64,000 nt of DNA, from assembly GCA_003194525.1 (NCBI GenBank), contig NBIV01000251.1, forward strand, positions 61,480-125,479, read 5' to 3'. Both the position numbers and the translations under genes were made by a program. Shown piece after piece: positions 9,010-53,762 of this stretch (position 1 is its first letter; every line of letters starts with the position of its first letter). This stretch comes from Gracilariopsis chorda (Eukaryota; Rhodophyta; Florideophyceae; Gracilariales; Gracilariaceae). Below the pieces are notes generated by a model. The model saw only the letters and a list, made by a program, of their open reading frames with translations. It was not told where the DNA came from and ran no database searches.

Positions 9010-9037
9010 GTAGCCGACAATCCTGCCTCAGCACCAT

Positions 9038-9044
9038 TATAAAA
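9038..9044 (+). promoter_or_regulatory. TATA box of duplicated unit A, copy 1
   Basis: TATAAAA, conserved with the same flanks at 52228-52234. Its first base is only 27 bp upstream of the ATG at 9065, so transcription should start at or very near that ATG. Confidence 0.55.
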
Positions 9045-9064
9045 GCCGCCGTTCGCAGCCCAAG

Positions 9065-9502: not shown

Positions 9503-10722
9503 GCATCCCCGGAGAGGCGGACACACCTGGCTCTGCCACGGCAATCTATAGGTTGCCGGATGCGACACAAATAACTGTCATCAGGAGGTATATTAGTGGG
9601 ACGGGGTAGAGGTGGAGATTGTTCCAGCTGCATTCCTCCCGCGCTCACTCATTCTGTTCTGTATTGTTGTTAAAGAAAGTAAAGTAAGCCCAGACTCATT
9701 CGTAAAATTGAAGCTCCAGAATTCTTAGACATAGAAATTAGATCGCTGAGAAGCATTCATGCCTAACCGAGCGTTTATTCTGAATTTCTATGCCAACAGA
9801 AGGTAGAACAGCAATTTTGGATTTCTTGTGCCTATTTCGTCGGAAACTCTAGAAGTAGGTTTCGAGGATTAGTTATGAATAAGCCAAGACTCACTCAGAT
9901 AGTCTGAAAGCCTTCGAAGAGTGAGAAAAAACACTTACTTCTATCCTGTGACGAGGAACTGGTCTTCGAATTTAGTTGGACTCGCTCAGTCCTGTTTTCA
10001 ACCGAAATGCTACACTACTCTCTTGCTCAGGCTTCGGAATATAAAAACGCATGTAAGACCCACTGTTGTAGTGAACCTATGGTTTACAACAAGAAACCAT
10101 AGACATGGGATACGTCTCGTCCGAGACGTTTGCCTCCCGCATCCGCTGAGGAGGTTAGAATGACCAGTTCAAAGCGAGTAGCGCGTGGCGGACACGCTAT
10201 GGGCCGTATCCAAAACGTTGGTCACACATGCTGTATCAATCACTACGAGACTTTGAATGGCTCTGCAGTACAATCATTGTGATCCAGGCACATTTGCTGA
10301 GTGCTTCATCCAGATCCTAGGAACTCCAAAGCGACTTGCAATTATCATTAACTTCCCTGACTTCTTGATATTTTTCTCGATTATTATCGAGGTCTGTAGA
10401 ACTCATCAGCCCTCCCCAACATGTGAATACACTCCAATTCGAGCCTGCAGTGGCCTAATCTAGCAAAATGGAGTTCGATTCAGTTCACTTCCATAAAGTA
10501 AATTTGTCCTCTTGAAAATGGTTCGAAAGACAACTCAGAGAATCGTAGATCAACCACATTTTTGATTATTATCAGCCGTCTTCAAAGTAAATCAAATCTT
10601 TGCTCAGTGGATGCTGACACAAATGCAATTTCTAATTCGAAGCATGTCTGGAAAGTACTTTCACGCAAAGGCATCTGATTCCAATCCAATTCCGGCTGTG
10701 TCCCCAATTCAAAACTCATCGG

Positions 10723-10793: not shown

Positions 10794-10988
10794 ATGCTGA
10801 GAAACCGTCAACCTTCTACCTCCCTAGGAAGTAACAGGGCTTGTTCGAGGAACCAATCTCGGTACGTGAGACTTGTTCCTTTGTTTATGTTTAAAAAGTT
10901 GCTGACATTTCTTTCTTCCGCTTCCAGCTCTTATTCTAGTGCTGTCGTCGGAGCTTGTGAGCCTCAGGCGACCCCCCTCTCTCCATAG
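10794..10988 (+). CDS. Small spliced gene of unit B, copy 1
   Basis: An ATG lies about 70 bp downstream of the TATA box. Exon 1 (10794-10861) ends at donor GTACGT; a 66-nt intron (10862-10927) ends TTCCGCTTCCAG. Exon 2 ends in TAG at 10986-10988 with the C-terminus SSAVVGACEPQATPLSP. The intron length is a multiple of three and has no stop, so 42 residues (spliced) or 64 (unspliced) are both possible. Copy 2 keeps donor, acceptor and a similar C-terminus (SVVYGAC...LSP), which supports splicing. Family not recognised. A structured element starts 10 bp after the stop and may be its 3' UTR. Confidence 0.4.
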   Translation: MLRNRQPSTSLGSNRACSRNQSRYVRLVPLFMFKKLLTFLSSASSSYSSAVVGACEPQATPLSP

Positions 10989-10998
10989 ATACGAAAGG

Positions 10999-11133
10999 GC
11001 TGTCGGAAAAGAAGGGATTTCTATGGGTACCGACAGCAAGCCCATCGGCAGCAGGAGAGAGGGATCCCGTCAACTTGTGAATCGATTTTCGTAGTTTCGA
11101 GTTGATCAACGGGACGTTGCTGCCGATTGGGCT
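10999..11133 (+). ncRNA. Conserved multi-stem RNA-like element, copy 1
   Basis: Hairpin 1 pairs GCTGTCGG (10999-11006) with CCGACAGC (11030-11037). A second long stem pairs AGCCCATCGGCAGC (11039-11052) with GCTGCCGATTGGGCT (11119-11133) and encloses an inner stem CCCGTCAACT (11066-11075) with AGTTGATCAACGGG (11100-11113), with AATCGATTT in the apical part. Copy 2 at 53763-53894 keeps all stems with paired changes. It could be a 3' UTR structure of the unit-B gene, an independent RNA, or a DNA foldback. Confidence 0.55.
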
Positions 11134-11340
11134 GGGAATCTTTCATCTTAGCGAGCCATCTTCGGTTTAAGCCGAGTTGGTTCTCATTCTGCAATTTATA
11201 GGCGCAGCTGTATATTGTGAATATGGATTTCTTGTTGTACACTACCCCATTGTTCATAATGCACATACAATTATTCTACTCACGCTCCGCAGACTGTTTT
11301 TTTGCTTATTGGTCATTTACATATACAAAAACTCTGAGCT

Positions 11341-14264: not shown

Positions 14265-14484
14265 CGTGTATGACTCAACTGGACATAGTTGTTTGCCATA
14301 ACCTCATAGCTCCAGTTATTCTTGGTTGTTACTTTTGTCATCGCATTGTCGAATTAATTTGCCTCTTTGCATAAATTGCGGAAATAAAAGACGTTCCTAC
14401 TTAACTTATTGTTTGTAAACCACTGAAGCGTGCTACTCAGAAACGTATACCAGTATAGCCTGCTCAAGAACTTTTAGAACGCGG
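14265..14484 (+). pseudogene. Protease/linker fragment of old element E3 (left piece)
   Basis: The plus strand reads LDIVVCHNLIAPVILGCYFC, matching the E1 protease flap and ILG region (LDFIVCRSMAAPVILGCDYC at 18056-18115). It continues in a second frame as CKPLKRATQKRIPV then PAQELLERG, matching the E1 protease-RT linker (RRPLKRSSRKQFPLPAAQEP). Stops and a frameshift show decay. The sequence is cut by E1 at 14503 and resumes at about 27015-27336 after a solo LTR. Confidence 0.75.
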
Positions 14485-14502
14485 GTGTAGTGCAAAACCC
14501 GA
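14339..14502 (+). repeat. 164-bp direct repeat flanking E1, left copy
   Basis: Begins CATCGCATTGTCG and ends AAAACCCGA directly against the 5' LTR of E1. The right copy is 25935-26098, of equal length with two clear base differences. It comprises about 146 bp of E3 coding sequence (including GCGGG) plus the outermost 17 bases of the solo LTR that is complete only on the right. Confidence 0.85.
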
Positions 14503-15334
14503 GGAAGTGCAACGCCCTCAGGGAGGGATTCGTGGTACTTGATCGTTTTCCCGATATTATCGGTTGTGTAGTGTGTATATGAACTACGCCCCATTATGGT
14601 GGATATGGACACGTGGGACACGGTTTTGGGTCAATTGGCGGTTGGCCAAAGTAGTGGATGTTGCCACGAAATGTGGAGTATTTTAGTTAGTATTATTTAT
14701 TATTTTCACACCCATTTCTGGGAAGCTAGTACTTAGTGCGACGGCGCACTGCCGTCGAACCAGTAAAACTTCCCCAACAAGGGACCCCAACCTGGGAAAT
14801 TGGCTCTAGTTGTTGCCGCTTGCGCGCGTGCTCTACTCCTCCTTGGAGGGAAACGCCGTGAGCCACGGGACATCTAACCCCCTTGCACGTCTAAAGAGGC
14901 CCATCCTTGGGAGTATAATTGTTCCAATCACATTGGTGTTTTGCCCTGTATAGGGAGTCCTGTCCACCGGCATTTCCGTATTTGTTCGTCGCTCTCGCGA
15001 CTCACCCTCGCCCACTCTTCCTCCTTTCCCTTCACTCTTCTCCTTTCCCCCTTTCAGGGTAGTACATCCCGCTACCCGCGGCTCTCCTGTGTGCACCCGC
15101 TCACACATCCCCACTTACGTGGAAACATACCTCTACTGAGGATCACACCCCGCTCACACGGATACCGATTCTTCGCCTTCACCTCCCTGCGCAAGTCGCG
15201 ACAGGTGTCCCTGGTCTTACAGACCGGCTTCGCCGTGACACCTCTGGGAGAGCTCTACCCAACTGGGTTCACCTCGTGAGAGGAAGATCCCGAACGTGTT
15301 TCGGTGTTTTTCCCCTTTGGGGCATTGCACCACA
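14503..15334 (+). repeat. E1 5' LTR
   Basis: About 832 bp. The 3' copy starts TGAAGTGCAACGCC after the polypurine tract; this copy starts GGAAGTGC, with the first base changed. Both end ...TTGCACCACA or TTGTACCACA. The ends are imperfect inverted repeats (TGAAGTGCAACGCC against TGTGGTGCAATGCC). Internal features include TTATTTATTATTTTCAC and a C/T-rich stretch at about 15010-15055. Confidence 0.92.
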
Positions 15335-15337
15335 AAG

Positions 15338-15350
15338 TGGTCTCCCGACC
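15338..15350 (+). promoter_or_regulatory. E1 primer-binding site (minus-strand priming)
   Basis: TGGTCTCCCGACC lies three bases inside the 5' LTR. The inferred tRNA 3' end is GGTCGGGAGACCA, close to the CGGGAGACCA end of yeast-type tRNA-Tyr. E2 keeps TCTCCCGAC at the same place. Confidence 0.55.
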
Positions 15351-15439
15351 TAGAATGGGTTTTTGTTTTCCCTCTTACGAGGTTTGTTTTCATTCACCGG
15401 AAGTTCCGTGATCGTTTCCCGTCGTAACGGTATTTTCTC

Positions 15440-17614
15440 ATGTCGAGAAATCGCTCCGATGCGGAGCCAGTGGTTACGCGTAGTCGCTCCCGCGACAACG
15501 CGGACACTTCTGAGGTTCGGTTCGTACCCCGTATCCCTATACGGACAAGTTCCAGCCGTACTGGCGCCGCTTCATCGCGGAATGATACCCCCGACCGCGA
15601 ACCCCGGAACCTCCTTTTGCCCTCGTTATCACCCCCGCAGGGGAATGCAGCATCGATTCGGGCTGTTGCCGCAGTGCCCCAGGCACCACGGCCTGCTCCC
15701 GCTGTCGTGGCTTCAAGCCCCCGTGGAACGGGCGATAACAACCCCCAGGGGACTTCCCTGGAATCCAAGGTCCGCGCTCTGTGGACCGCTTATGACACCC
15801 TTGTAGGGGAACTAAAATCCTTCCAAGAGGTGGTCTTGGCAACCCCCGTAAAGGAGGTCGCCGAGGAACTCCGTATTTTACGGTCTGACGTCAACTCCGT
15901 GTTGGAGAGTTTGGGACAACCCGCCACCTTCATCGAAGGAGTTGAAGCCCGATTTGATCGGATTGGTGCCCGCCTGGAGACGCTGGAGCAGTTCGTCCTC
16001 ATGGACAAACCATCCCCGGATGATCCGGTAAACGAGGCATCGCACAACGACCAGCTTGCTGGGAAGAAGAAACGCCGTCATTGATGGAAACACCACCGAA
16101 AATATTCGGACTCCGATTCTTCGACATCGTCGGACTCATCCCGAAACCATTCGGTTAGCTCGAGCTCCTCGGACTCCGACTCGGAGGACGAGAAGCGAGG
16201 CTACTCCTCCCGCTCGAAGTGGTCATCGGCCACTGAAGGTGTGGTCCGAACCTGCCAGAAGGGGAGAAGACACCCCGGTCTTCGGGAATTGAAACCGACA
16301 AACCCGGATTACCGGAAGCTTTTATCATACCGGTACTACCGGCTCGAAGACTCGTCACTTGGACGTACGCCCCGTGGTACGGGAAAGGTGCGAGAATGCA
16401 TTAAGCGAATGCAGCTCTCGCTCCGCAACCAGTATTTTACTGGAGAGGACCCAGTCCTAGTACTGGATTTCCTATCCCGCTTTGTAGCGGAGGCCGATAT
16501 CCTCGGTATGAATGAGGGACAAGCCTATTTGGCTTTACTGTATTTCTTATGAGGAGTGGCGGAGGACCAATACAACTCGGTCAGGGGATCTTCTCGTGCC
16601 TCCGAGGGAGGAGTTACTTGCTGGCCGGAGGCTGTGCAGTATCTACTGCGCTCCTACGCCACAAACACCGCTATTCAGCAGGCTATCCTCGCCTTGCGAG
16701 ATACACGCCAGCGTGCTGGAGAGACCGAGACCGATTACTCGGTGCGCCTTAACAAGGCTTTCCACAGATGTGGTAACGTATACCCCGCTGGGGAGCGCAG
16801 TACCATGTTCATCGATGGTCTTGACCCGGCAATCCGGAGTTTAGTTACCCGTTATCGGGAGGACAAGCGGAGGATCACCTATCTCGAGCTGGTCCAACAC
16901 GCCCGAGCGGAAGGGGATGCACTTCGTGCAAGAACTCCGAACAATCGGTCTAAATCCGCCAAGGCGTTGTTGCTGGAAAGCGAAGCTTCCTCACTCCCGC
17001 TCACCGCGGATGGGAACCCTGGACAGGGAATTGATACCGTGCATTTAGTGCAGGAGGATGGTGTGTCGATACCCACCAGTGATTTACCGTCAACGACGGA
17101 GATGACCCGTGATACGGGAACGGAAGACCCCGTTTTGTACGGTGTTAACAGTGGGGTTCAACCCCAACGACTCCCGTTTTCACACGGTCAATCCCGTTAT
17201 CAACGGCCTGGGTGGACTGACACCCGCCCTGCGGTTCGCTTCTCCGATACTCGGAATAATAATCCGCGTGTCGCGGTATTGGCTCTGATTTGCCACCTGT
17301 GCTATGCCCATGGCCATACCTCACCTCAGTGTATTTGTTCACTGAAGGATATGGCCAAGGTGGTGGCAAATTATGAGGCCCTCACTCCAGAAGAGAAACG
17401 TTCCGTCCCGACGGCTTCCTACCTCCGTGCTAAAACGGACTTTTCCCATGCCCTACCACAGACCCCGCGTGCGCGGCAAGCTTCATACACCCCGAATCGG
17501 GAGATCACGCAACCATCCGTTGCAACCCCCGCTTATGCGGATAGAAACCCCCATCAACGGGATGAAGCACTCGTTGTCGAGGAAACCAACCCACCGCCGA
17601 AGGCGGAAAACTAA
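15440..17614 (+). pseudogene. E1 gag (capsid/nucleocapsid), interrupted by two stops
   Basis: One frame starts MSRNRSDAEP and runs about 725 codons with TGA at 16082-16084 and at 16550-16552. The N-terminal 200 residues are Ser/Pro/Arg-rich, with a predicted helical part (VAEELRILRSDVNSVLESLG). A Ser/Asp and Lys/Arg stretch follows, then a capsid-like block (YFTGEDPVLVLDFLSRFVAE, GERSTMFIDGLDPAIRSLV). A CX2CX4HX4C zinc knuckle lies at 17291-17332 (CHLCYAHGHTSPQC). Gag packages the RNA into particles. E2 aligns along its length and has Arg where E1 has the second TGA. Pol begins 17 bp after the gag stop in another frame. Confidence 0.88.
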
Positions 17615-17631
17615 CTGAGGGAGTTTCCCCT

Positions 17632-20600
17632 TTGGGAGAGGCGTCCTCAAGAACGAGGCTGTTGGCACCCGAGGCGTCCTCGCCTCGCTCCCCGATGAAA
17701 GTCCTCTCGAGGAAAGACACCGCTGACGCGGACTCTGCGCACCTCGGTGTGTTGCGTCGCCCGTGGATACGTAGTAAAAATCCCCGGATTCCCGGTAGAG
17801 TCTTGGTCTTGGCCAAGCGCAACTATAAGTTCTATGCCGACCTTGGCCTTGACCCCCAGTTTATGGTGAGGTTTCTCACCGTCCTGGATACAGGTGCAGG
17901 CCCCAACTTTGTTGTGGAATCATTGTTACCCCCGCCTGTGCGGTCTCGTATCCGCTCTGACGCGGTCCCCGACATTTCGGATGCGAACAACAATCCGTTA
18001 CAAACGATGGGCACAGTGGACCTCGTCGTGAGACTTGGTACCTCTGTGGTGAAGTTGGACTTCATCGTTTGCCGTTCAATGGCAGCACCAGTCATACTGG
18101 GATGTGATTACTGCGACAGATTTGTCGACGCAATCAGGCCCCGCCTCAGGCGTGTAGAACTTGACGACGGATCGTCGGTTCCGATTGTTCGCCGCCCGCT
18201 AAAGCGGTCCTCTCGGAAACAATTTCCGCTCCCTGCTGCGCAGGAACCACCGCCCGCGTCCCGCGAGTCCACCAAGCTCCGCGTCGCTGCCTCGGTTTCC
18301 ATACCGGCTGAGTCCCAAGTCTGGGTGCAGGTAAATTCCCGTCAACACGGTCTTCGGGTTATACAACCCCTCACCTCGTTGTACGAGAAATCCCAGCTGG
18401 CGCTGGGTAGTGGAATTGTCTCCATTTCCCCGGATGTTCCTTTCCGGATATTGGTTGCCAACCTTGGCAAACACCCCCAGTATCTAATAAAACACCAAGT
18501 AATTGGGAGTGTAACCCCCCATCCTATGGGAATGCTGCCAACGAAGATGACAGCCGCCGATGTACTCGGAGTTACCACCTCTTCTGAGGAGTTCGCCCCG
18601 CTGTCCGAAGACGTCAAGTCTAGGGAGGGGGAGGAAACCGCTACTTCAGCGTCGAACATACCGAGTAACTCGGAATTGAGAACCACACCTTTTCTACAGG
18701 ACAATGCTCGATCGAGCAACGACCGGATTGATCCGGAAAAGGCACTTGAAGCGCTGGACTTCAGCCACGTGCCAGAGTCGCACCGCGACAAACTTCGTAC
18801 CATGTTACGGGAATTCACCACAATGTGGGATGGCTTGCTTGGCGAGATTAACGCAACGGAACACTGGATCGATTTAATCCCCGGTGCGCGATCGGTTGCA
18901 CAACCCCCTTACATGGCAGGTCCTAAAGCTCGGGAAGAGGAGCAGTCCCAAGTGGACAAGATGCTCCGCGCAGGTGTGATTGAGCCCGCTCAATCACCCT
19001 GGGCATCCCCAGTTGTACTGGCTTTGAAGGCCGACGAAACCTGGAGGTTCTGTGTCGACTACCGCCGGCTCAATGCCGTGACTGTTAGGGACATGTACCC
19101 TATCCCTCGTATGGACGAGTGTATTGACTCCCTTGGAGACGCCACCGTGTTCACGGCCCTCGATGCCAATTGGGGATACTGGCAAGTACCTGTCAGACAG
19201 GAGGATCGCGACAAAACCGCATTCACCTGCAACGCAGGAACGTACCGCTTCAAGCGGATGCCATTTGGGTTAACCAACGCCCCTGCCACCTTTCAGCGTG
19301 CAGTAGATATTCTACTCAACCGCTTTAAGTGGCGGAGTTGTCTGGTGTACCTTGATGATATTATCATCTTCTCCAAGTCGTTGGACGACCATCTCACTCA
19401 CGTCCGAGACGTGCTGACCGTACTCCACGATGCGGGAATTACCCTCCAGTTGAGGAAATGCGAGTTTTTCACAGATACTGTGAAGTATCTGGGTCACATT
19501 ATCCGTCCTGGACGGTTAGCGATCGAGAAAGCTCGAGTCAAATCCCTCGTTGAGGCAAGAGAGCCCCGTACTCAAACGGAACTGCGCTCCTTTTTGGGGC
19601 TGGTCAACGTCTATCGACGGTTTATCCCGAACTTTTCGGATACCGCGGCGCCCCTGAACGCGTTGTTGTGAAAGGGGAACCCCCCAAAACTGGGAACTTT
19701 TACGCCAGAGCAATCGGAAGCCTTCAACTCCTTGAAGGAGGCTGTCACATCAGCACCAATCCTACATCTCCCAAAACTTGGGTTGCCATACTCCGTAGAT
19801 ACGGACTCGAGCGACTACCAAGTCGGGTGTGCTCTTTTTCAAACCATCCCCGAGGGGGAACGACACCCAATTGGTTATTGGTCGCGCTCGCTTAATTTTC
19901 ATGAGCGGAATTACTCCGTATGGGAGAAAGACTGCCTCGCCGTCGTATGGGCGATGACCACTCTGCGTCCCTACCTTATGGGAGTTCACTTCACCGTGTA
20001 CACGGATCATTCCTCATTGAGGTGGTTAATGAATATCTCCGACCCGTCGGGACGCCTCATGCGCTGGAGACTCCGCCTCGCGGAATATGACTCTCAAGTC
20101 ATTTATAAAAAGGGCGCGCAGAACACCCAGGCCGACGCTTTGTCGCGGTTACCCACAAGTGGCGAAGCACTCCCAACGGAGGATGATGAAGTCCCATGTT
20201 TCATGGCCATAGACCCGGATGATCCGGAATGTGCCGTCGAGGCTGGGCCAGAAAACTGGGACGAAGCTGCTGATTTTGACGAACTACTCGCATCGCGAGA
20301 TGAATCTGAGAACCCGTTACCGGGAAACTTTGTACCGGTATCACCGGAAGAAATGATCCGAGAACAATTCGGCGACCCATTCTGTACGAGGATTTGTGCC
20401 CGTCTTAACGGTGGTGAAGATCTCCCTTTCGGGGTAAACGACAAAGGCTACCTCGTAAGGAAGGTCGAAGCCCGCCCACAGATTGTGGTACCTCATTCCC
20501 TGCAGTCGCGGGTGTTACATCTATCACACTACGCCCCCATTGGAGGTCACCCAGGTGGGAGGAAACTCTACCTAACCCAGCGAAGGGATTTCTATTGGCC

Positions 20601-21567
20601 CGCCATGGCGGTGGATTGCTACGCAACCGTGCGGTTTTGTAGCGAATGCGCGAAGAATCGCGTCAAGCTCCGCAAAAATGCGAAGAAGATGAAACTATTC
20701 CCCGCAAGGGCGCCGCTCGAGTTTATCGCGATCGATATTCCCGGACCATTACTCACCACGAAACGTGGAAACAAGTTTCTACTTGTCGTTACCGACTGCT
20801 TTTCCAAGCTGGTACGGACTGTCCCTCTTCGGAGGATAACCGCTCTCACGGTGGCCCAGGCTCTGTTGACGCACTGGATTTTTGTCTACGGTCCCCCTGT
20901 GGAGGTGCTCTCCGATAACGGGAAACAGTTCGTGAGCAAGTTCTTCCAGGATGTTTGTCGCATCTTGGATGTCAAGAACTTGTTCACGACTACCTACCAC
21001 CCCCAGTGTAATGGGCAAGTTGAACTGTTTAACCGGACGTTACTCGCGGCGTTACGTTCCTACGTCGCAGACCACCCAAAGAACTGGTACATGTACGCTG
21101 ATGCGGTAACCTACGCGTACAATACGCAAGTAAACCGGATTACCGGAGTTTCGCCTTTCAAGTTGGTTCTATCTAGAACACCCCCACCTGTGGCGCTGGA
21201 ACCCTAAGCTACCTTGGACGATTTCCCATCAGTGGGTATCTACCGGCAGCAATGGAAGCAATGGCTTTCCAAGCTGGTCCCCGCTGCGCGGGAGTCTATG
21301 GCAAGGGCCCAAGCCGCTTACAAGCGGGATTTTGACGCTCACTTGCGAGGAAAGACGCCCCCGATTCGGACAAATAACTACGTCTTCATCAGGAAGGAGT
21401 ACTACAACCCGGAACAGGAGAAGCGTCACAAACTCTCGCCTGTGGCGGACGGACCCTTCAAGGCCATCTCTGTTAATGCCGACACTGTCGTTGTAGAGAT
21501 AGGTGGAGCACACGAGCAGATCTCCGGCGATCGTGTCGTACTCGCCCCCCTCCCTCCTCAGAGGTAA
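17632..21567 (+). pseudogene. E1 pol: protease, reverse transcriptase, RNase H, integrase (two in-frame stops)
   Basis: Domains in order. Aspartic protease: DTGAG at 17887-17901 and ILG about 70 codons on. RT: fingers from about 18990 (GVIEPAQSPWASPVVL), catalytic YLDD at 19348-19359. RNase H: DTDSSDYQVGCALFQ at about 19798, HTD-type YTDHSS, and ADALSRLP at its end. Integrase: HHCC finger with CSEC, then D at 20734, D at 20914 and E at 21022, giving DX59DX35E; then the GPF/Y-type module (DGPFKAISVN). Stops are TGA 19669-19671 at the RT/RNase H border, where E2 has Arg, and TAA 21205-21207, where E2 has Gln. A one-base deletion in the C run near 21548 ends the frame at 21567, whereas E2 continues into the tether. 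Confidence 0.93.
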
Positions 21568-23074
21568 TCCTGGATTCAGAACATCCCGTTTCTACGGACT
21601 CTGCAACACCGGAATCCTCCGGGAGTACTAGGCCTACGGTACTACCACACCCCAGCCGGGGACTCTCAGACCTACCGACCCTGTCGGACTCACCGGCTCA
21701 GCCGGGTAATTCGGGCCTCTCAGCGCCCGCCCCCCTGGCGCGAATTTACACCCGCCAGGCGGGGAATGTTATCCCTTATCCCACCGCTCCGTCTAAGAAG
21801 GGGGAGGAGAACACTCGTTTTTGAGGAACGATATCGCCGTCGCAACGGGAAGTTGAAACGCAGCTACGGCACACCCCTGTCAGGGAGGGATCCCCGTTAC
21901 GGGAGTACAGCGACGATCGCCCTCAACCCCTGAGCAGGGCGATGACTCGAAGCCGCCGTTGGCGGAAGTCCCCGCGGAAGCGGTTCAATCAGGTCGATCA
22001 GACCCGCGCCTTGCGGAGAAGAGGCGCCCAGATACACCAGCGCCGCTGGGAAATCCCCACACCCAACCTGGGGAAAAAGGCAGCCAAGCCACAGCCGAAG
22101 CTTCAGGCCCTGGCCCGCAAGCGCCGGAAACGCCTCCCGTCGTCCGCGGAATTGAAGCCCCCGTTCCGGGGAATAATTTGCGCCACCTCCCGCAACGCTG
22201 TGGGGAAGAACCGAGGAACTCGGAAAAAGCGCACGCCATCGCACGCTCGAAACTGGTCATACCGGACGCTGCTCCTCCGCGTGGAGACAGTGCACCGCAC
22301 TTAGCGGCCAAGCCCCTGAAAAGGGTGTCATTGGCACCTGTCCGGCACCCCCCAAAGGGGAATTTTGACCAAAATACTGGTGTACCGGAGTTAGCCCCAG
22401 GCAACCCGTCAGTAGCCGGGGACACCACGGCATCGCCGGAACGTATGGTGCAGAGCGCTCGTGCGCCTGGCAGGGAGGCGGTTTGCCACCCAATCACCGT
22501 GTCGCACGGGACCCCCCAGGGGATTGTGTAAATGCCGATTCCGCAGGAGCAGTCATCTTCCCGCAAACTCGCTGTTCGTGAGCTCAACCGCGAAGGCGGA
22601 GCCCAAGTCCCCCGCCGACTGGCGGTTCGCCCGCAATACCGCGAAAGCGGAAATGAACCTGCCTCAATGGGGAATGACTTGCCGGTGAAAACTGTGACAC
22701 CACACACCCTCCTGAGGGATATCTTTCCGCATGAGCAGCGGCCACTATTACAGCGCATGGCAACGCCGGAGTTATCGCCGAACACCCTGCTAAGGGACAT
22801 TATACCGCACAGCGGGCAGCCCGCGCAAGGGAGTACAACCACCACCCGGCACGGCCGGCAGGTCTACGAACGAGAGTTCGTAGTAGACCGACTTGTCAGA
22901 CATACCTGGGACCAGGATGGTATTCTACAATACCGCGTCCGCTGGTACGGGTACGACCCCAGTGGGGATACGTGGGAGCCAATTGAACACCTCCCACGGT
23001 CGCAGGACCTGCGATACCACCGTCAAACGGGAACTGCAGCCCCAGCCACGCTGGTTAATGCCCAAGTTGGGTAA
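21568..23074 (+). pseudogene. E1 pol tail: low-complexity tether and C-terminal chromodomain
   Basis: After the pol frameshift a Pro/Arg-rich region runs through several frames to a 180-codon frame (22532-23074). It contains the repeated motif LLRDIFPH/LLRDIIPH and RLAVRxxxRE repeats, then a chromodomain at about 22868-23020 (YEREFVVDRLVRHTWD, YRVRWYGYDPSGDTWEPIEHL) with the aromatic positions Y, W and W of the methyl-lysine cage pattern. In chromoviruses this module is fused to integrase and steers insertion to marked chromatin. The C-terminus ALVNAQVG-like end is shared with E2 (LCNAQVG). Confidence 0.85.
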
Positions 23075-23264
23075 CGTTGCCGCGCGAGCGGAGAGCGATA
23101 GGAAAGGATAACAAGGCAAGGTCCGTCCAAGACGGGGAACTCAACCGAGAAGCACCGTTCTAAATGGGAAAGTTTTTTCAAGGAGCAGCTAGCTCCCCAC
23201 AATACTACACTACAGTAACTGGCATAGCCAGGGAAAGAAGAACCAGGAAGCTGGACTAGAGGTT

Positions 23265-25052
23265 TCACTCACCCCCATCGTCCGGGGCGTAACCACCAGC
23301 GAGGCGGTAGGGCAACGCGTCCGCCATGGTGGTGACATCCCCCGATACCCCGGCAGCGCTAAGACCGGCACCCCGGAGAAAACGTGCGATGATGTCGTTT
23401 TCATTCGCCGTCACCCCGCTGGGGATAGAAGGTCCGGCACTTGCCGTCGAAGGGTCAGCAGCCGGCTCGGCCGGAGATACCCCCTCTGGGAAAGCTTCCG
23501 CGATAGCGCCGGTTTCCTCTACGTCCATCTCCCCGGGTTCTTCCGGTTCGTTATCGACCATTGGTTCATCCCCGCCGTATGCGCGGTAGTAGTCGTCAGA
23601 ATCGACGTACCCCACCGGGTGGTCTTCCGGCACATGCCGGGGCGCATCGCGAAGCTCGCGCTCCTCCTCGGAGGAAATTTCTCGGAACTCCCAGGGGTCG
23701 AAGTAGATAAAATCCCCCGCAAAGGCGGTGTTTCTACCGCGTCTCGGACCACCGGTGTTACCGCTGCCGCCATCCAGACGACCGCTTTGCTCCAGCGGGA
23801 CCTCACTCCAGCTAACGCTGTCGATGTACCCAAGTAATTGGAGGACCTCTTCATTGTTGGCCTGGCCCCCAAGGGGGATGCGAAGATCCAGGTTTCGGAT
23901 CGCTGCCCGCACACGCGGTGGAAGGAACCAGAGAAGATACTGGTCGTACGCCTCGTTGAGGATATAAGCCTCAGTGCGGGCCGCCCACTCCGTAACCACT
24001 ACGGACCACAACCCCGACCGGGGATCCTGCATGAGCAGCGAACCGAGGTACGGAAGTACCGGCGGGAGTTCTATGTAGCACCCCCGGCAGGCTTCATGGA
24101 AGCGCCACCACTCGGGGAGTGCTACATACCGACCTAGTCGGTGAGGCGGCGCAATACGCTCTATCTCCACGTTCTGATACGGGATGAAATACCCGAATCG
24201 GGATCGCCAACACCACTCGTAGCGGATGACGTTTTGGAGAAAGTTGGACCGTTATTGCCGGGGAAAATACCTGAACTCCGCCCGAATGATCGGTCGCTCC
24301 CAGGAAAGGGCTTCTTGCCGCGCTGCGGGGAAATTCCTCCAAGCGAGGGTCTCGAGGCGGAACAGATTCTCGCCCTACCCAACCTCCCCGCGAGTGCAGA
24401 AGTGGCTAACGTCGAAGCCGAACTCCGGTGGGACCCGTACATTGAAGGGGGCCCGGCTCTGCCGTAGATATGCCATGCGCGTCAACGCGGTGTGCGCCGC
24501 AGCGACGGTCTCGCCCGAATTCCTTCGGAGGTGGTGACGTGGAATCGCAATCCGGTGACGCCAATCCCACGATGTGGTGACTGCTCTGGGCAGATCCCCC
24601 GGAAGGGTGTCTGAGCCATCCGCATAAGCGGTGACCAATCCCTCATTGAAGACAGCGACCGGGTGGAACCACGGGGCAAGGCGCAGGCGCGACGCGTGGT
24701 TCCGACTCATCGGGTTGAGTCCCACCAGGGTGTTGTACGTTGGCCACTTGAATGCCGGAGCGGTTCCGGAGGACCCCACCGAAGGTGGTAGTGCGAAGGG
24801 ATGGTCGGCTGCAGCAGCCATATTCCCTGGTTGTACGGGATGTCGATCGCCCTGAGGCAGGGGAACTGACCGAAAACCGGTGGTGTATCGCCCGAGAGGC
24901 CTTGGAGGATGGCTGTGGTTGTTGATGTTGTTGTTGTTGTTCATTTCTCCCTTTTCGAGGGTGGCTGTTGTTGTTGTTTGTGCGCTCGATGACTCTGGTG
25001 CAGAGGGATTTACCAGAGAACCGGAGACAGAGCACGCGCTTTTATCACCCAT
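23265..25052 (-). pseudogene. Opposite-strand accessory gene of E1 (unknown family)
   Basis: Minus-strand gene of about 595 codons, convergent with pol and starting 56 bp inside the 3' LTR (MGDKSACSVSGSLVN). An N-terminal 225-codon frame (24375-25052) has Thr/Asn runs and the core WPTYNTLVGLNPMSRNHASR then LRLAPWFHPVAVF. A 301-codon frame (23265-24170) has ALPEWWRFHEACRGCYIELP, MQDPRSGLWSVVVTEWAAR, VLQLLGYIDSVSW and a long acidic tail (DNEPEEPGEMDVEE). The 200 bp between them also codes in matching frames, with one frameshift and one stop. E2 and E3 carry homologues at the same place. No signal peptide, membrane segment or known enzyme motif is visible. It may encode a structural or regulatory factor of the element; function unknown. 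Confidence 0.85.
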
Positions 25053-25096
25053 TTTCGTCTGGGAATCCTCCGCGTCCGCGGTCGTTTTCCCGTCTT

Positions 25097-25108
25097 AGGG
25101 GGGGGATA
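25097..25108 (+). promoter_or_regulatory. E1 polypurine tract (plus-strand primer)
   Basis: AGGGGGGGGATA lies directly upstream of the 3' LTR start TGAAGTGC. E2 has the equivalent tract (complement of TATCCCCCTCCTTAG at 31518-31532). Confidence 0.85.
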
Positions 25109-25934
25109 TGAAGTGCAACGCCCTCAGGGAGGGATTCCTGGTACTTGATCGTTTTCCCGATATCATCGGTTGTGTAGTGTGTATATGAACTACGCCCCAT
25201 TATGGTGGATATGGACACGTGGGACACGGTTTTGGGTCAATTGGTGGTTGGCCAAAGTAGTGGATGTTGCCACGAAATGTGGAGTATTTTAGTTAATATT
25301 ATTTATTATTTTCACACCCATTTCTGGGAAGCTAGTACTTAGTGCGACGGCGCACTGCCGTCGAACCAGTAAACCTTCCCCAACAAGGGACCCCAACCTG
25401 GGGAATTGGCTCTAGTTGTTGCCGCTTGCGCGCGTGCTCTACTCCTCCTTGGAGGGAAACGCCGTAAACCACGGGACATCTAACCCCCTTGCACATCTAA
25501 AGAAGCCCATCCTTGGGAGTATAATTGTTCCAATCATATTGGTGTTTCGCCCTGTATAGGGAGTCCTGTCCACCGGCATTGCCGTATCTGTTCGTCGCTC
25601 TCTCGACTCACTCCGTCCTTCTTTCCTCCTCTTCGCCCTTCCTTTTCCCCTTTTTAGGGTAGCACCTCCCGCTATCCGCGGCCCTCGTGTGTGCATCCGC
25701 TCACACACCCCCACTTACGTGGAAACATACCTCTACTGAGGATCACACCCCGCTCACGTGGATACCGATTCTTCGCCTTCACCTCCCTGCGCGAGTCGCG
25801 ACAGGTGTCCCTGGTCTTACGAACCGGCTTCGCCGTGACCCCTCTGGGAGGGCTCTACCCAACTGGGTTCACCTCGTGAGAGGAAGATCCCGAACGTCTT
25901 TCGGTGTTTTTCCCCTTTGGGGCATTGTACCACA
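25109..25934 (+). repeat. E1 3' LTR
   Basis: 826 bp from TGAAGTGCAACGCC to ...TTGTACCACA; aligns end to end with 14503-15334 with scattered, mostly transition, differences. Confidence 0.92.
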
Positions 25935-26098
25935 CATCGCATTGTCGAATTAATTTTCCTCTTTGCATAAATTGCGGAAACAAAAGACGTTCCTACTTAA
26001 CTTATTGTTTGTAAACCACTGAAGCGTGCTACTCAGAAACGTATACCAGTATAGCCTGCTCAAGAACTTTTAGAACGCGGGTGTAGTGCAAAACCCGA
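25935..26098 (+). repeat. 164-bp direct repeat flanking E1, right copy
   Basis: Same sequence as 14339-14502 (T for G in the ATTTGCC segment, C for T in GGAAATAAAAG). It starts directly after the 3' LTR of E1 and runs 17 bases into the solo LTR beginning at 26082. Confidence 0.85.
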
Positions 26099-30718: not shown

Positions 30719-31517
30719 TGTCGTGCAATGCCCGGAAGTGGGAGTGCGTCGAACGACGTTCGGGATCTTTCCTCGTTAGAGGTGAGCCCAGTTGGATAGA
30801 GCCCTCCCAGGAGTAGCACGACTATGTTGGGTTGTAAGGATGAGGCCACCCGTCGCGACTGGCGCAGAGAGGTTGAGGCAAGAATCGGGTATCCGCAGGA
30901 GCGGTGTATGGGGGAGGTCGTCCTTTAGAGAGGTGAGATTTCCCCGTTAGTGGCAGGCGCGAACACGAGCCGTGGGTAGCGGGAAAGCCACCCTGTAAAG
31001 GGAAAAGAAAGGGGGGGAGCTGAGTCACGAGTATCGTGACGAAGACTAACGGCAGTGCCGGTAAATAAACCTTATATACAAGGCGAACACCAAGACAGTT
31101 CGAGTAACAATCCGAACCCTCGGGTCCTTTAGATAGGCAAGGGGGTTAGACTTCCCGTATGTGACGGTGCTTCCCTCCCAAGAGGAGTAGAGAACAAGCG
31201 AAGGCGGTAAGGACTAGACCCAATTCCCCAGGTTGGGGTCCCTTGTTGGGGAAGTTTTACTGGGTCGACGGCAACTCGCCGGTGCACCAAGTACTAACCA
31301 TCTCAGAAATGGGTCTAAAAATAATAAATAAAATTAACTAAATTACTCCACTTTGGTGGTTCGTGCCCACTACTGTGGCCAACTGCCAACTGAATCTTCC
31401 GTGTCCCACGTTTCCAATGCAATATTAGTGGTCGTAGTTCATGCAATGACTAAATTACCGAAACATTCGGGAAATCAACCAAGTGCCAAGAATCTCTCCC
31501 TGAGGCATTGCACTTCA
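30719..31517 (-). repeat. E2 3' LTR
   Basis: On the minus strand it runs TGAAGTGCAATGCC...TTGCACGACA. It aligns with 40527-41300 and more distantly with the E1 LTRs (for example the TATTTATTATTTT and CCCAACAAGGGACC blocks). Confidence 0.9.
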
Positions 31518-31573
31518 TATCCCCCTCCTTAGTCGGGAAAGCAACCGCGTACGCGGGCAAATCCCAGCGGAAA

Positions 31574-33185
31574 ATGGGGGATAAAATTCTAAACCTCTCT
31601 GGGTCACCGGGTCAAACCTCTGCCTCAGAGAAACAACCTCCTGCAAAAGCAGCGAACCAGCCTTCCACAAGTGCACGCTCCTCCTCTTCCTGCTCAACTC
31701 AATCAGATCACACCCTTCCGAAGGGTAATATGAACAACAACAACCAGCCTCCAAGACTGACTGCAGTGGGGAACTTCATAACCGGTTTCCGGTCGGTATC
31801 CTTGCCATAAGGGAGGCGAACTCCAGCACAGCCGGCCAACATTGGCGCAGCGTCCCGGCATGGGTTCCAACTTCCAGCAGCGGTGGCTACTTCTGGACTG
31901 ATCCCGGTGATGACCTGGCCTTCTTATAACGCCCTTGTAGGGTTAGATCCTATGAATCGGAGTCACGCCTCTCGGCTCCGGCTTGCGCCGTGGTTCCATC
32001 CCATCGCTGCCCTCCACAAGGATTTGGCTATGGCCTACGCGGATGGTTCCGGTACTTTGCCCGGGGATCCACCCAGCTTCGTCACCTCGGTGAAATCGGT
32101 TATGGCGAACGCCTGGCCAACGTCCAAACCCTTGCGTGGATGAACTTTCCCGCTGCGCCGCAAGAAACCCTGTGTTTGGAACGACCGATAATTCAGGCTG
32201 AATTCCGGTACCTTTCCCTTCAGTCTCGGTCCAACTTCCTCCAAGACTTCATTCGTTATGAACGGCACTGGCGATCCAGATTCGGGTACTTTGTCCCATG
32301 TCCAAACGTGGAGATTGAGTGGATTGCTCCGCCTCACCGACAGGGTCGGCATGCCGCACTCCCCGAGTGGTGGAGGTTCCATGAGGCTTGTCGGGGTTGC
32401 TATGTTGAGCTTCCGCCGCCACTCATGTACCTCGTTTCCTTTTTGATTCAGGATCCCCGGTCGGGGCTTTGGTCAGTAATTGTAACTATGTGGGCTGCCC
32501 GCACTGCGGCGTACATCCTCACTGAGGTTTATGATCAGTGTGGGCCTCTATCCACAATCTGGACCTCAGCGCCCCCCTTGGGGGTATTGCCAACAATGAG
32601 GAAGTACTCCAATTACTTGGTTTGATAGACAGTATTAACTGGGGCGAGGTCCCGCTGGAACAGAGCGGTCGGCTTGACGGCAGCGGTGGCGGTACTGGTG
32701 GTCCGGGTCTTGGTAGAAACATCGCCCTTTCTGGGGATTTCATCTACTTCGATCCCTGGGAGTTCCGGGATATTTCTTCTGAGGAGGCGAAGGAACTCCG
32801 CGACGCACCACGGCACGTGCTGGACGACCATCCGATTGAGTACGTCGATTCCTACGATTACTACCGCGCGTATAGTGGGGATGACCCGATGGTCGATAAC
32901 GAACCCGAAGAGCCGGGGGACATGGAACTAGAGGTTGCCGACATGGTCGTAGACGAATCCCCTGAGGAGGTGCCTCCAGTTTCCAGTCCTCCGACGGCGA
33001 GCGCCGGGTCTTCACTCCCCAGCGGAGGTACAGTCACTGAAAGCGATATCAGTGCCCGCTTCCTCCACGGAGCGGGTTTAAGCGCTGCCGAGGTTTTGGG
33101 TGACGTCACCGCGATGGCGGATGCCTTGGCTTACCGCCTTGCGGGTGGTCACGCCCCGGACGATGGGGAGGGGTCGAACCTCTAA
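31574..33185 (+). pseudogene. Opposite-strand accessory gene of E2 (homologue of 23265-25052)
   Basis: Starts MGDKILNLSGSPGQTSAS, 56 bp inside the 3' LTR, exactly as in E1. It spans about 537 codons in three successive frames (stop at 31808-31810, shifts near 32120 and 32560). Shared blocks are MTWPSYNALVGLDPMNRSHA then SRLRLAPWFHP, RPIIQAEFRYLSLQSRSNFL, ALPEWWRFHEACRGCYVELP, IQDPRSGLWSVIVTMWAAR and an acidic tail (DNEPEEPGDMELE). It converges on the chromodomain with 187 bp between stops (190 bp in E1). Family unknown. The identical placement shows it is a fixed part of the element. Confidence 0.85.
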
Positions 33186-33372
33186 TCCAGTATACTGGTC
33201 TCTTTCTATGGCTTAGCCAGTAATGTAGCTTAGCATCACACAGGAGCGCGGGGCTCCTGAGTAAACGTTCCCGTTTAGAACGGCGTTTTCTTTTTAATTC
33301 CCGTCCTTGACGGAGTCCATACAAAAGGGGGTGTACTCCTTCTTTTCTACCTTGCCCGGCTTTGCGCCGTTT

Positions 33373-33879
33373 TTATCCCACTTGGGCGTTGCACAGCGTA
33401 GCTAGATTTGCGGTACCCGCGCTGCGGTGATATTGGACCACTTTCGAACGAGGGAAGTGTTCGATGGGTTCAATGGTGTCCCAGCTTGGGTCATATCCGT
33501 ACCAACGGAGGCAGTATCTAAGAATAACTTCCTGATTCCAGGTGTGCCCGACGATTCGGTCAATCACAAACTCTTGTTTGTATACTTGCTGGCCTTGCAG
33601 TGTTATGGTGACCTCGCTTGTCAGGGGTTGCCCGTTGCACGGGATATTTCCCCTCAGGGGTGCGTCCGGATGTAACGTGCCGGCTTCGCTCGGAGGATGC
33701 GGAGCAGAGTGCGGAATAACATCCCTCAAGAGGGTGTCTTCGTGGAACGGTTGCCGCGTACCACAGTATGTGGGTCGTACCGCTAGTTTGCGCGGGTCTT
33801 CAGTTCCATTTGGACGGTAGTTCGGTCTAACCGCGAGCGTGCGGGCATCTTGCCGCTTTGGTGGGGTTGCGGAGGTCAT
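33373..33879 (-). pseudogene. E2 chromodomain and distal tether
   Basis: 168-codon frame: LLRDVIPH-type repeats, then YKQEFVIDRIVGHTWNQEVI and LRWYGYDPSWDTIEPIEHFP, a chromodomain in which Trp of the E1 DTWEPIEH motif is Ile. It ends LCNAQVG as in E1. Confidence 0.85.
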
Positions 33880-33900
33880 TTCCTGGTGGGGCTTTCCACG

Positions 33901-34976
33901 TCACGCGTTGATTGGTGCGGGGCGCCCAATGTCCATGCGTTTAGGTGACTCCCACGACATGTGGTTCTGAACCACGTCCTTGCGTTCCGCCTCCCTTGGC
34001 ATGGGACTTACACTGTCTGGCTGAGCCGTGCACTGCTGTGTTGACACCCGGTATCCGGCGGTTACTTCCGGTGTTCCGGTGCGTTGCATCAAACTCCCTG
34101 ATGAGTCGTGGAAAATTGGTGCCATGGACAACCTGTTTAGAGACTTTGCCTCTAATTGAGGTTTGATGTCTTCCTCAAGAAGTGCATCATCCGGGACGAC
34201 CGGTTTAACCCTGGCGACGACACCGGATGTTTCCGAGACGCTCTGTATGTTACCGCGATTGCGCGAAGACTTCAGCACTTCGATCTCTGAAGTTCGGACA
34301 AAATTCTTGTTATGAAATGTTCTCAAGTCCGGAGCTGTAGAGCCAGAGACTTGAGTTGCAAGAGGTGCATTCCTGCCTTCCTCCCTCAAGAGGGTCTCTT
34401 CAATTTCCAGCGTTACTGGTTTCCCAACGCGTGCGTTGTCCACTACCAGCGGTTTGGATGGTGCTGAGGAATCCGTTTTGGCGGAGATTCTGTCAACGAC
34501 GGTTCTGCGACTACACCCTGGTGAGGGGTCTGATTCAGGGGATTGCCCTGGTTCAGGGGTGCAGACTGCGATGTCGGTCCACTCTCCCGTATCAGACGGT
34601 GTAACTGCGTCGTTCCGGAACCCTGTGTGGGGGATTGCGAGGATTCATCGACCTTCCGTGTTCCACGTTTCAACCCCCGTTGCAACGGTAATAAATTTCC
34701 AGCGTGGCGATAGGGCCCCTTCCCCTCCTTACACGGAGCAAGGGGAGTAGTAGTAGGATATCCCGAATGGTGGGTGTAAATGCGCGCCGAAGGGGCGGTA
34801 GTGTGAGGAGTAGAGAAAGGTCCATTTGGACCTGAACGATCCGGACGAGCCGGGGCTTCCGACAAAGTCGGTAAATCTGAGAGGCCCTGGGTAGGGTGTG
34901 GTAGAGTAGTCGGTCTATTTAGTCCGGGGGTTTCCGGCGTTGTTGAGTCCGTGCAGACGGGTGTCCCTGTTTCCAC
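33901..34976 (-). pseudogene. E2 integrase-chromodomain tether
   Basis: Two Pro/Ser/Thr-rich frames (177 and 180 codons) correspond to E1 21568-22531 (shared LPHPTQGLSDLPTLS-like start). Low complexity and disordered in appearance; no catalytic motif. Confidence 0.7.
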
Positions 34977-37900
34977 GACTACCTCAGACGAGGGAGGAGG
35001 TGCAGGTACAACCCGATCGCGAAGAAATCCGCTCGTGTGCCTTCCTCATTTCCACTACGACAGTGTCGGAGTTAACAGAAACCACTTGAAATGGTCCATC
35101 CACCACATTCGTAAGCTTTTGACGGCTCTCCCGTTCCGGGTTATAATATTCCTTTCGTATATAGACGTAGCTATCAGCCCCGTATGCGGGGAGTATTACA
35201 TCGTAAAAGAGCATCGAAATTCTGCTTGTATGCGGCTTGTGCGCATTCCATAGACTTCGGCGCTGCGGGGACCAGTTCAGTAAGCCATTGTTTCCATTCC
35301 TGGCGGTCGCGACACACAGATGAGAAATTGTCCAAGGTGGCTTGGGATTCTACCGCCATAGGCGGGAGTGAACGAGATAGAACCAATTCGAACGGTAACA
35401 TTCCGGTAGTCCGGTGAACTTGCCTATTGTATGCAAATGGTAAAGCATCTGCATACAAGTACCAAGTTTTGGGGTGATCAGCGATGTAGGAATGGAGAGA
35501 GGCAAACAAAGTCCGGTTGAACCGTTCGACTTTCTCATTACACTGGGCATGGTAGGTAGTCGTGAACAAGTTCTTCACTTCCAGGATGCAAAAAACATCC
35601 TGGAAGAACTTGGACGCAAACTGCCGTCCGTTATCGTACAGCACCTCCACAAGAGGACCGTAGACAAAAATCCAGTGCATTACCAGAGCACAGGTCACCG
35701 TGAAAGCAGTTATCCTCCGAAGAGGGACAGTCCGAACATGCTTTGAAAAGCGATGGGTGATCACAAGTAAGAACTTGTTGCCTCTCTTTGTAGTGAGGAG
35801 AGGTCCCATAATATCGATTGCGATAAACTCGAGTGGCGCCCTAGCAGTGAATAAATTCATTTTCTTCGCGTTCCTGCGGAGCTTCACCCGGTTATTCGAG
35901 CATTCGGTACAACACGGCACAGTTGCGTAGCAATCAACCGCCAAGGTGGGCCAGTAAAATGCCCTTTGCAGGGGGAGGTAGAGCTTCCTCCTACCTACGT
36001 GGCCACCGAGCTTCGCACAGTGCGGGAGATGTAACACCCGCGACTGCAGGAAATGGGATACCACAATCTGTGGGCGAGCTTCGACCAACCGAACTAGGTA
36101 GCCTTTATCGTTCACCTCGAAAGGGAGGTCTTCACCACCGTTTAAACGGGCACGAATCCTTATACAGAAGAGGGCACAGAATTGTTCTCGGATCAATTCC
36201 TCAGGTGAAACCGGTACAAAACTTCCTAGTAAGCGGTTCTCAGGGGTTCTCAGGGGTCCCGCGGGATGCGAGTAAGTTGTAAAAATCAGCATCATCATTC
36301 TAGTCTTCTGGCCATTCCTCGAACTTCCACTCCGGGTCATCTGTTTCTTCAGCCATGAAGCATGGAATGTCCTCATCCTCCGTTGGGAGTGCTCCCCCAT
36401 TTGTGGGTAAACGCGACAAAGCGTCAGCCTGGGTGTTGAGCGCACCCTTTTTATATATGACTTGGAAGTCATATTCCACAAGGCGGAGTCTCCAGCGCAT
36501 GAGGCGGCCCGAGGGATCGGATATGATGATTAACCACCTCAACGAGGAATGATCCGTGTATACGGTCAAATGAACTCCCATAAGATAGGGGCGTAGGGTG
36601 GAAAGCGCCCACACGACCGTAAGATACCCGTTCTCCAACACAGAGTAGTGCCGCTCGTGGACATTGCGCGAGCGTGACCAATAACCAATTGGCCTTAGCT
36701 CCCCCTCTGGGGTGGTTTGGAAAAGAGCACCACAAACTTGGTAATCACTCGAGTCCATGTCCACGGAGTACGGGAGTCCTAGTTTGGGTAAAGATAAGAT
36801 AGGTGCTGACTTGACAGCCTCCATTAAGGATTTAAACGCTTCCGGTTGCTCGGGAGTGAATGGCCCCAATTGTGGGGGATTTACGTTGCGTAATAACGCA
36901 ATCAAAGGTGCCACGATATCCGAAAAGTTCGGAGTAAACCGTCGGTAGACGTTGACCAGCCCTGAAAAGAAGCGAAGTTCCGTTTGAGTGCGGGGTTCCT
37001 TAGCCTCAACGATGGACTTGACTCGAGCGTTCTCGATCACTAACCGTCCTATACGGATGATATGTCCCAGATATTTTACTGTATCGGTGAAAAACTCGCA
37101 CTTCCTCAGCTTGAGGGTAATCCCTGCATCGCGGAGCACGGTTAGAACGTCTCTGACATGGGTGAGATGGTCGTCCAAATTATTGGAGATGATGATGATA
37201 TCATCCAGGTAGACCAGGCAGCTCCTCCACTTGAATCCGTTCAATAGAATATCTATTGCACGCTGAAACGTAGCAGGGGCGCTGTTCAAACCAAACGGCA
37301 TCCGCTTGAAGCGTTACGATCCTACGTGGCAGGTGAACGCGGTCTCATCGCGATCCTTCTGTCTAACAGGGACCTGCCAATATTCTCAATTGGCGTCCAA
37401 AGCCGTGAAAACGGTAGCGGCTCCAAGGGAGTCGATGCAATCTTCCGTACGATGGATGGGATATATGTCCGTAATAGTCACAGCATTGGGCCGGCGATAG
37501 TCGATACAGAACCTCAAGGTTCCGTCGGCATTTAAAGCAAGTACAACTGGAGATGCCCAGGGTGATTGAGCGGGCTTTATCACACCTGTGCGGAGCATTT
37601 TGTCCACTTGGGACTGCTCCTGTTACGGAGCTTTCGGTCCTGCCTTGTAAGGGGGCTGTGCCATCGGACGTGCACCCGGTAACAAATATATCCGGTGTTC
37701 TGTAGCATTAATCTCGCCGAGCGAGCCATCCCACATCGTGGTAAATTCCCGTAGCATTGCATGGAGTCTGTTGCAGTGTGACTCCAGTACATGGCCGAGG
37801 TCTATATCTTCGAGTGCCTTTATGGGGTCCACTCGGTCAGAACGCGCTGTAACATTGTCCTGTGATACAGTTGAGGCCGTCAGTTCCGAGTTATTCGGGG

Positions 37901-38077
37901 TGTTCGACGTTAAAACAACGGTTTCCTCCCCGTCCTTTGACGATAGTTCGTCAGTGGTGGGGGTGGCTTCCTCAGAAGAGGCGGCAATTCCGAGAACATC
38001 GGCGGTCGTCATCTTCGTCGGGAGCATCCTAAGGGGGTGTGGCGTGGCGCTTTTAACTACTTGGTTCTTTACCAGAT
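34977..38077 (-). pseudogene. E2 pol: RT, RNase H and integrase
   Basis: Read on the minus strand: linker (VVKSATPHPLRMLPTKMT), RT (GVIKPAQSPWASPVVLALNA at about 37560, stop in place of Trp in the DANW motif, YLDDIIIIS at about 37215), RNase H (SVDMDSSDYQVCGALFQ, ADALSRLP) and integrase (CTEC finger, AIDIMGPL, YDNGRQF, VERFNRTL, i.e. D, D, E). The longest frames are 333 codons (36300-37301) and 435 codons (35174-36481). No protease active site remains. Confidence 0.9.
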
Positions 38078-38607
38078 TATAGTACAGTACTAGTTCCAGG
38101 GACAAGTGGGGAAGTAGTACCTACTAGGGGTAGCAGCGGCAGAGTACGAGCAACTAGGGTGACAGTCCACTGGGGTCTAGTTGTGTCGTGGGCACCTTCT
38201 GACATTCAGGCGCAACGGGCGGGCGTTATCTGAGGTCCCTACAGGTCGGGCGCACTCGTAACGATGGCTTGGAAGCCTGTTTCCGCTGGAAGCTTGGGGA
38301 CGACGAGAGGACGGAGGTGGTGCTTGCCTTTACTCTTCAGTGCCCGGTGGCACTCAAGCCAACTAATATAGTTGGCGAGGCGCTCTAGACCACCGGTAAC
38401 TACTACTAAAAAATTGAATAAAATACAACACTATTCTACCGTGCACTGTGCTGCAGTGCCAGTTCCAGCGGAGGTCACAACTCACATCACAATTATCTCC
38501 GACCCACGTGGCTAGTATGGACACGAGCCGGTGGTGCTCTGGTCCTTCGTCAACCTCTTCGGCACTCCATCTTGCCAGCCGCCTAACCTTAGAGCTATTG
38601 TACTACA
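38078..38607. mobile_element. 530-bp MITE inserted in E2 pol, target duplication CAGAT
   Basis: Terminal inverted repeats TATAGTACAGTACTAG and TGTAGTACAATAG (complement at the right end). CAGAT occurs at 38073-38077 and 38608-38612. Removing the insert restores the coding line QYL-VKNQV, matching E1 QYL-IKHQV. No coding capacity. Confidence 0.82.
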
Positions 38608-38612
38608 CAGAT

Positions 38613-40523: not shown

Positions 40524-40526
40524 CTT

Positions 40527-52234: not shown

Positions 52235-52254
52235 GCCGCCGTTCGCAGCCCAAG

Positions 52255-53757: not shown

Positions 53758-53762
53758 AAAGG

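Follow-up and report, generated by a model that had tools for sequence, protein, structure and literature searches.

Ty3/gypsy elements of the red alga Gracilariopsis chorda carry a long antisense open reading frame (aORF) on the strand opposite to gag-pol, and this frame is almost certainly a genuine protein gene of the element. This accessory gene belongs to a red-algal, chromodomain-bearing Ty3/gypsy lineage, where it lies in antisense orientation between pol and the 3' LTR. It apparently represents a deeply conserved and so far undescribed variant within red-algal chromodomain elements. A sequence-only reading had taken the opposite-strand frame for a conserved protein gene that seemed undescribed and belonged to no recognised family, and our analysis supports this proposal.

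We analyzed a window of 64,000 nucleotides that contains two such elements, termed E1 and E2. Element E1 (approximately 14503-25934), a member of family A, has gag-pol on the + strand and the aORF on the - strand. It is bounded by a 5' LTR (14503-15334, +) and a 3' LTR (25109-25934, +) that are 94.4% identical; the 3' LTR starts with TGAAGTGCAACG and ends with ACCACA. The + strand carries an ORF piece without a Pfam match (16556-17614), which its location and a finger-like CxxC sequence lead us to call gag, a pol piece with the reverse transcriptase (17632-19671; PF00078, E = 9.6e-36), a further pol piece (19732-21207) that matches RNase H (PF17917), the zinc-binding domain of integrase (PF17921) and the integrase core (PF00665), and a chromodomain ORF (22532-23074; PF00385, E = 8.4e-11). 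In these Pfam matches reverse transcriptase, RNase H and integrase are followed by the chromodomain, which is the chromovirus arrangement, the class being assigned by domain order. A direct duplication of 164 bp (14339-14502 and 25935-26098, 98.8% identical) borders E1 on both sides, whereas ordinary 5-bp duplications (TCTGG, ACAAG) were seen at two family-A copies, both ends being readable in two of four.

The aORF of E1 (23265-25052, -) spans 595 codons from its ATG at 25052 to its stop at 23265 and is convergent with the chromodomain ORF. Two stops interrupt it in frame, TAG as codon 226 (24375-24377) and TAA as codon 267 (24252-24254), and it shows up in the ORF list as two ORFs of 225 and 301 amino acids. 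An intact homologue is found in copy L002 (619-2406). A leader of 56 bp (25053-25108, -) separates the start of the aORF from the 3' LTR, and a G-rich run within this leader can be read as a putative polypurine tract. We presume that the 3' LTR is the source of an antisense promoter. Element E2 (approximately 30719-41300) is inverted, with its 3' LTR at 30719-31517 (-) and its 5' LTR at 40527-41300 (-, approximate limits). Its decayed gag-pol-chromodomain region (33373-40154, -) lies opposite to a decayed aORF (31574-33185, +), which begins with MGDK and is broken into pieces in different frames (31990-32625 and 32538-33185), the distance from the ATG at 31574 to 33185 being 1612 bp and thus no multiple of 3. 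The sequence-only reading had described for both elements an MGDK start 56 bp from the LTR and a stop-to-stop gap of 187-190 bp. Both descriptions are correct: the two convergent stops are 190 bp apart in E1, and the gap from the aORF end at 33185 to the sense ORF stop at 33373 is 187 bp in E2. That each element has a gene of about 540-600 codons holds for the length and the orientation of the E1 frame opposite to gag-pol, but not for its integrity, since E1 has two stops and E2 is in pieces. The window by itself holds two dead aORF copies, and the reality of the gene rests on other genomic copies. Elsewhere in the window are a 628-bp repeat pair (9018-9645 and 52208-52834, 94% identical) that belongs to another repeat family and is accompanied by weaker repeats (10841-11184 and 53607-53941), a host-like gene (1067-3673, -) that encodes a BRO1 domain and an ALIX V-shaped domain, and a 619-residue ORF (59072-60931, +) with no Pfam match above the cut-off and a hint of an adenovirus-type protease (E = 0.034).

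We searched the 91.3-Mb G. chorda assembly for further copies. Among the 131 best-scoring matches to the E1 piece, out of 1478 candidates scored, 79 can be read for at least 591 amino acids without interruption; the number of matches is a lower bound and the intact fraction is biased upward. Two deposited G. chorda proteins match the assembly: residues 1-491 of BWQ96_03215 (P0002) are 100% identical to it, and residues 88-565 of BWQ96_10156 (P0006) 99%. The gene model of P0002 omits about 20 residues that are present in other members, probably because of a mispredicted intron. Searches with P0002 and P0006 allowed us to delimit, by identity, at least six element families, A to F. In one representative of each family the aORF is open from end to end (594-642 codons), a few codons of open frame preceding the first ATG in those of families C, E and F. 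In the same six representatives each of the remaining five frames contains 6-34 stops, and the frames of the sense strand 7-27. Constrained genes often have long frames on their reverse strand, and the aORF might on this ground be an ORF that mirrors a sense-strand gene by chance. Yet it alone is open throughout in all six representatives, which together with the 79 long frames excludes chance, and the stop counts in the other frames combined with the pattern of selection described below refute such a mirror ORF. We consider its probability to be negligible.

Selection was measured in 36 family-A copies aligned to the L002 frame, 25 of which had been picked by aORF matches and 11 by integrase alone. 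Variants present in at least two copies were termed shared, and are probably the transmitted ones, and those present in a single copy were termed private. The neutral model includes transition bias only, and copies enter the counts as independent although they are related. Shared variants of the aORF comprise 44 nonsynonymous and 70 synonymous changes and no stops, corresponding to 0.26 of the neutral expectation. Private variants comprise 197 nonsynonymous and 98 synonymous changes (0.83 of neutral) and 16 stops (1.42 of neutral). The two classes differ in their ratio of nonsynonymous to synonymous changes (Fisher p = 3e-7, copies being treated as independent). In the subset of 11 integrase-picked copies these ratios are 15/32 (0.19) for shared and 124/87 (0.57) for private variants of the aORF. 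The integrase control in 21 copies gives 11/40 (0.11) and 91/59 (0.64), a similar pattern. When the aORF DNA is read in the remaining five frames, the shared-variant ratio ranges from 0.39 to 2.97, and the lowest value belongs to the sense-strand frame that mirrors the aORF, though this frame contains many stops. Among family-A copies the mean pairwise dN/dS of the aORF is 0.33, compared with 0.24 for integrase; the former is not near 1, the value which the sequence-only reading, in proposing this comparison across copies, had named as evidence against a gene. Moreover, the third codon position is the most variable one in all six pairs of families tested. In the replicating lineage the amino acids of the aORF are thus under strong purifying selection, private variants looking nearly neutral. 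Since selection acts on amino acids, a role of the antisense RNA alone is unlikely. Such an RNA would overlap the genomic RNA, as expected of a product that restrains the element, but a purely RNA-based restraint predicts no amino acid constraint, whereas the shared variants are strongly synonymous.

The families differ in identity and spacing. Family B comprises six copies that are 93-100% identical to P0002 plus one partial copy, and family D six copies that are 97-99% identical to P0006, again with one partial copy. Family C has five copies at 61-65%, a further copy at 71% resembling a decayed member of B. Copies of family E are found at 51-59%, and for family F one copy at 46% was read, about 60 more matches at 42-46% being left unsorted. 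The aORF is convergent with the chromodomain ORF in all families, as judged for B to F from the context of one to four copies each. It is also convergent with integrase in A, B, D, E and F; in C the chromodomain ORF alone was seen. Its position between the end of pol and the 3' LTR was mapped fully in family A and from the pol side in B to F. The gap between the stops of the aORF and the chromodomain ORF is 187-190 bp in A, approximately 230 bp in E, 340 bp in F, 400 bp in D, 450 bp in C and 1450 bp in B. A short gap of fixed length is thus peculiar to family A, all the other families having a longer one. Integrase identity is 62-82% among A, D, E, F and a fragment from B, with one short pair at 57%, whereas aORF identity between families is 33-56%, and the aORF therefore evolves faster than integrase. 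Families D and E are the closest pair by both proteins. Over the same stretch, the broken B integrase fragment has an identity of 62.5% with A and 65% with D, and the aORF of B is nearest to A and C, at odds with its integrase. Exchange of the aORF between element lineages may thus have occurred. Some copies (L113, L116) have an integrase that is 93-94% identical to that of E1, yet a gene end that is 78-82% identical to L034. Such low-identity gene ends beside an E1-like integrase hint at recombination between subfamilies.

Relatives exist outside the assembly. Protein searches, in each of which 8000 candidates were scored, recovered at least 16 proteins, of which three belong to G. chorda, one (P0003) belongs to Gracilaria domingensis and twelve are others; the outside homologues are represented by protein sequences alone. 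A tree of 18 rows places P0003 inside the clade of families A, B and C, with a support of 100/100 for the clade and 83/81 for the position within it, and P0009 next to family F. This suggests that the families may have split before Gracilaria and Gracilariopsis separated; horizontal transfer could also have produced the positions of P0003 and P0009. At the search sensitivity used, contigs of prokaryotes and viruses gave no relative of the aORF. Open-licence papers on red-algal or chromovirus antisense genes gave no account of it either. Some LTR elements are described as carrying captured host genes (PMC7264820), and this precedent could be extended to the aORF as a host gene that was carried off once. 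However, wherever the context was read the aORF sits in an element of the same layout, six such families share one genome, and the place of the G. domingensis copy among families A to C suggests an old split. The sequence-only reading had asked for a clear match to a known host gene as counter-evidence; none was found, and the aORF protein matches no Pfam family. A single capture is highly improbable.

The aORF protein has a basic core (pI 9.2) and an acidic tail (pI 4.1, net charge -22), and the predicted model of the core is confident (170 residues with pLDDT of at least 90, pTM 0.70). Nucleic acid binding is a putative property suggested by the charge; the fold and domain searches gave no match in its favour. 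No segment of L002 is hydrophobic enough to span a membrane, the maximum 19-residue Kyte-Doolittle mean being 0.95, which agrees with the sequence-only reading. We rejected an env-like protein on the basis of this value and of the antisense strand. HBZ of HTLV-1 is a bZIP protein; 18 members compared to Pfam gave no bZIP match, and an HBZ-like factor was rejected on this basis. A Retand-type antisense protein was also rejected, Transposase_28 (PF04195) not being matched. In the members scanned, Pfam revealed neither an SMC nor a plant mobile domain, and no sequence match for the aORF protein was found in the PDB. The product could also be a structural partner, that is a capsid, assembly or particle-coat protein of virus-like particles. 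A large folded protein of about 600 residues under purifying selection in six families would suit this role, and particle proteins can also reach deletion derivatives in trans. The element, however, already has its gag-like piece at 16556-17614, to which the aORF aligns in hhalign with a probability of 0.1%, and the fold comparison found neither a viral fold nor a match among the 22 best PDB chains. Particle proteins are normally translated from genomic RNA and not from antisense RNA, and the antisense aORF does not conform to this. A capsid role has gained no support, and we regard a structural partner as improbable.

The loss of the gene was followed from the integrase side. The integrase search gave 86 matches besides E1, the best-scoring of 5507 candidates, and 45 integrase-selected family-A copies were examined, 20 of them taken at every fourth rank plus 25 more. 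The aORF is found, with coding constraint, in most copies: 28 of the 45 keep the gene or its 3' end, although 16 of these 28 were seen by the 3' end alone (one at 78% identity) and L046 and L047 in part. Nine copies have lost the gene almost exactly and four have lost its core (L042, L043, L112 and L116), which contradicts the claim that the gene is a fixed part of the family. The other four were assigned neither kept nor lost, two of them having an edge at the usual breakpoint. The nine near-exact losses represent two deletion types, type I in six and type II in three copies; they start at codon 12 or codon 21 and end 14-17 bp beyond the stop. A third deletion type is common to L042 and L043. 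All three type-II copies have a common 24-bp filler at the junction, with two differing positions in total, and five of the six type-I copies have the same bases around the junction. Because junctions are shared, each deletion type looks like one event that spread. Both types are found at different genomic places, and the deleted copies are separate insertions, since similarity ends at the LTR end wherever it was read that far. In a tree of an LTR stretch the deleted copies are ungrouped and both types occur in both main clades. This shuffling of types and clades suggests that elements have recombined or that deletion took place repeatedly, the latter for type I, which has a short repeat at its junction. 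Among copies L044, L045, L054, L057, L058 and L059 the same junction occurs on different LTR backgrounds. The gag-pol frame around integrase, its length being read through stops inside the match, has a median of 1317 amino acids in the nine gene-less copies and of 1316 in the 28 gene-bearing ones (p = 0.53). Gene-less elements have multiplied, and the aORF is therefore not needed in cis; their spread is equally compatible with a gene that is simply dispensable under present conditions and with complementation in trans.

That near-exact deletions are recurrent and have spread would also be expected if the antisense product, transcript or protein, restrained the copy number of the element, so that derivatives gain by losing it. 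Besides the constraint on amino acids, which argues against the RNA version, a self-limiting protein is hard to keep over the depth of families A to F, with aORF identity down to approximately 33%. Such self-restraint is unlikely.

We favour a trans-acting accessory protein because of the antisense site by the 3' LTR, the selection on amino acids, the lack of membrane features, the charge layout and the spread of derivatives. The product would be a regulatory or accessory factor that acts on the nucleic acid or chromatin of the element, for example by limiting silencing or in the nuclear export or import of its RNA or cDNA, and its folded basic core and acidic, putatively disordered tail would be its means of action. 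If the aORF works in trans, gene-less copies can still spread, using protein supplied by other copies, and they may at the same time shed an antisense transcript able to pair with their own genomic RNA. As a whole this mechanism is tentative, and we rate it slightly below an even call. A narrower version is an antagonist that blocks chromatin or small RNA silencing of the element. Chromodomains suggest integration into silent chromatin, and the element has one; a trans factor also agrees with the spread of gene-less copies. No family match, however, names a suppressor, and this version is possible but doubtful. The same degree of doubt applies to a broader picture, in which an ancient family with a fold of its own would define the red-algal chromovirus lineage and act in trans against host silencing, while gene-less cheaters would use the protein of others, recombine and shed antisense RNA that would expose them to RNA silencing.

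Comparable genes are known. The aORF-3R or eORF-3'R genes described in PMC7264820, such as maize Grande gene23, rice RIRE2, Silene Retand ORF4 and PvRetro13, are, like the aORF, antisense, located between pol and the 3' LTR, present in most copies of a family and reported there as open in function. The same source reports that the Grande product is nuclear and that a promoter upstream of gene23 drives its transcription, and it places the HTLV antisense promoter inside the 3' LTR. Retand elements are described as non-chromoviruses, with 97% of their clusters carrying a Transposase_28 gene in antisense orientation (PMC11963269), whereas the families studied here bear chromodomains. A plant survey calls extra ORFs highly divergent and questions their function (PMC6317226). 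Unlike the plant set, the aORF is one protein family common to six chromodomain families and to other data sets. An antisense extra gene in a non-plant LTR element is brtn of Boty (BcGypsy1) from Botrytis cinerea (PMC8365987, PMC7264820), whose host is a fungus and not a red alga. Grande GENE23, RIRE2 and Boty brtn are likened to the aORF by description. HBZ of HTLV-1, described as nuclear and critical in the viral cycle (PMC11963269), and other retroviral antisense genes share with the aORF a protein gene on the antisense strand, but HTLV-1 is a retrovirus and the aORF members have no Pfam match of the bZIP kind. CERV of Cer1 in C. elegans, described as an LTR-element protein required for the nuclear export of genomic RNA, is likened to the aORF by role alone. 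The comparison to Grande GENE23 and HTLV HBZ is a working likeness and would not imply homology.

With the aORF comes a protein family that has no counterpart in Pfam, a confidently predicted model and, to date, no fold match. It is one protein family across six element families, and selection on it has been measured in transmitted variants. Moreover, the natural deletion derivatives provide a built-in comparison, by which the use of an antisense accessory gene to a retrotransposon becomes testable.
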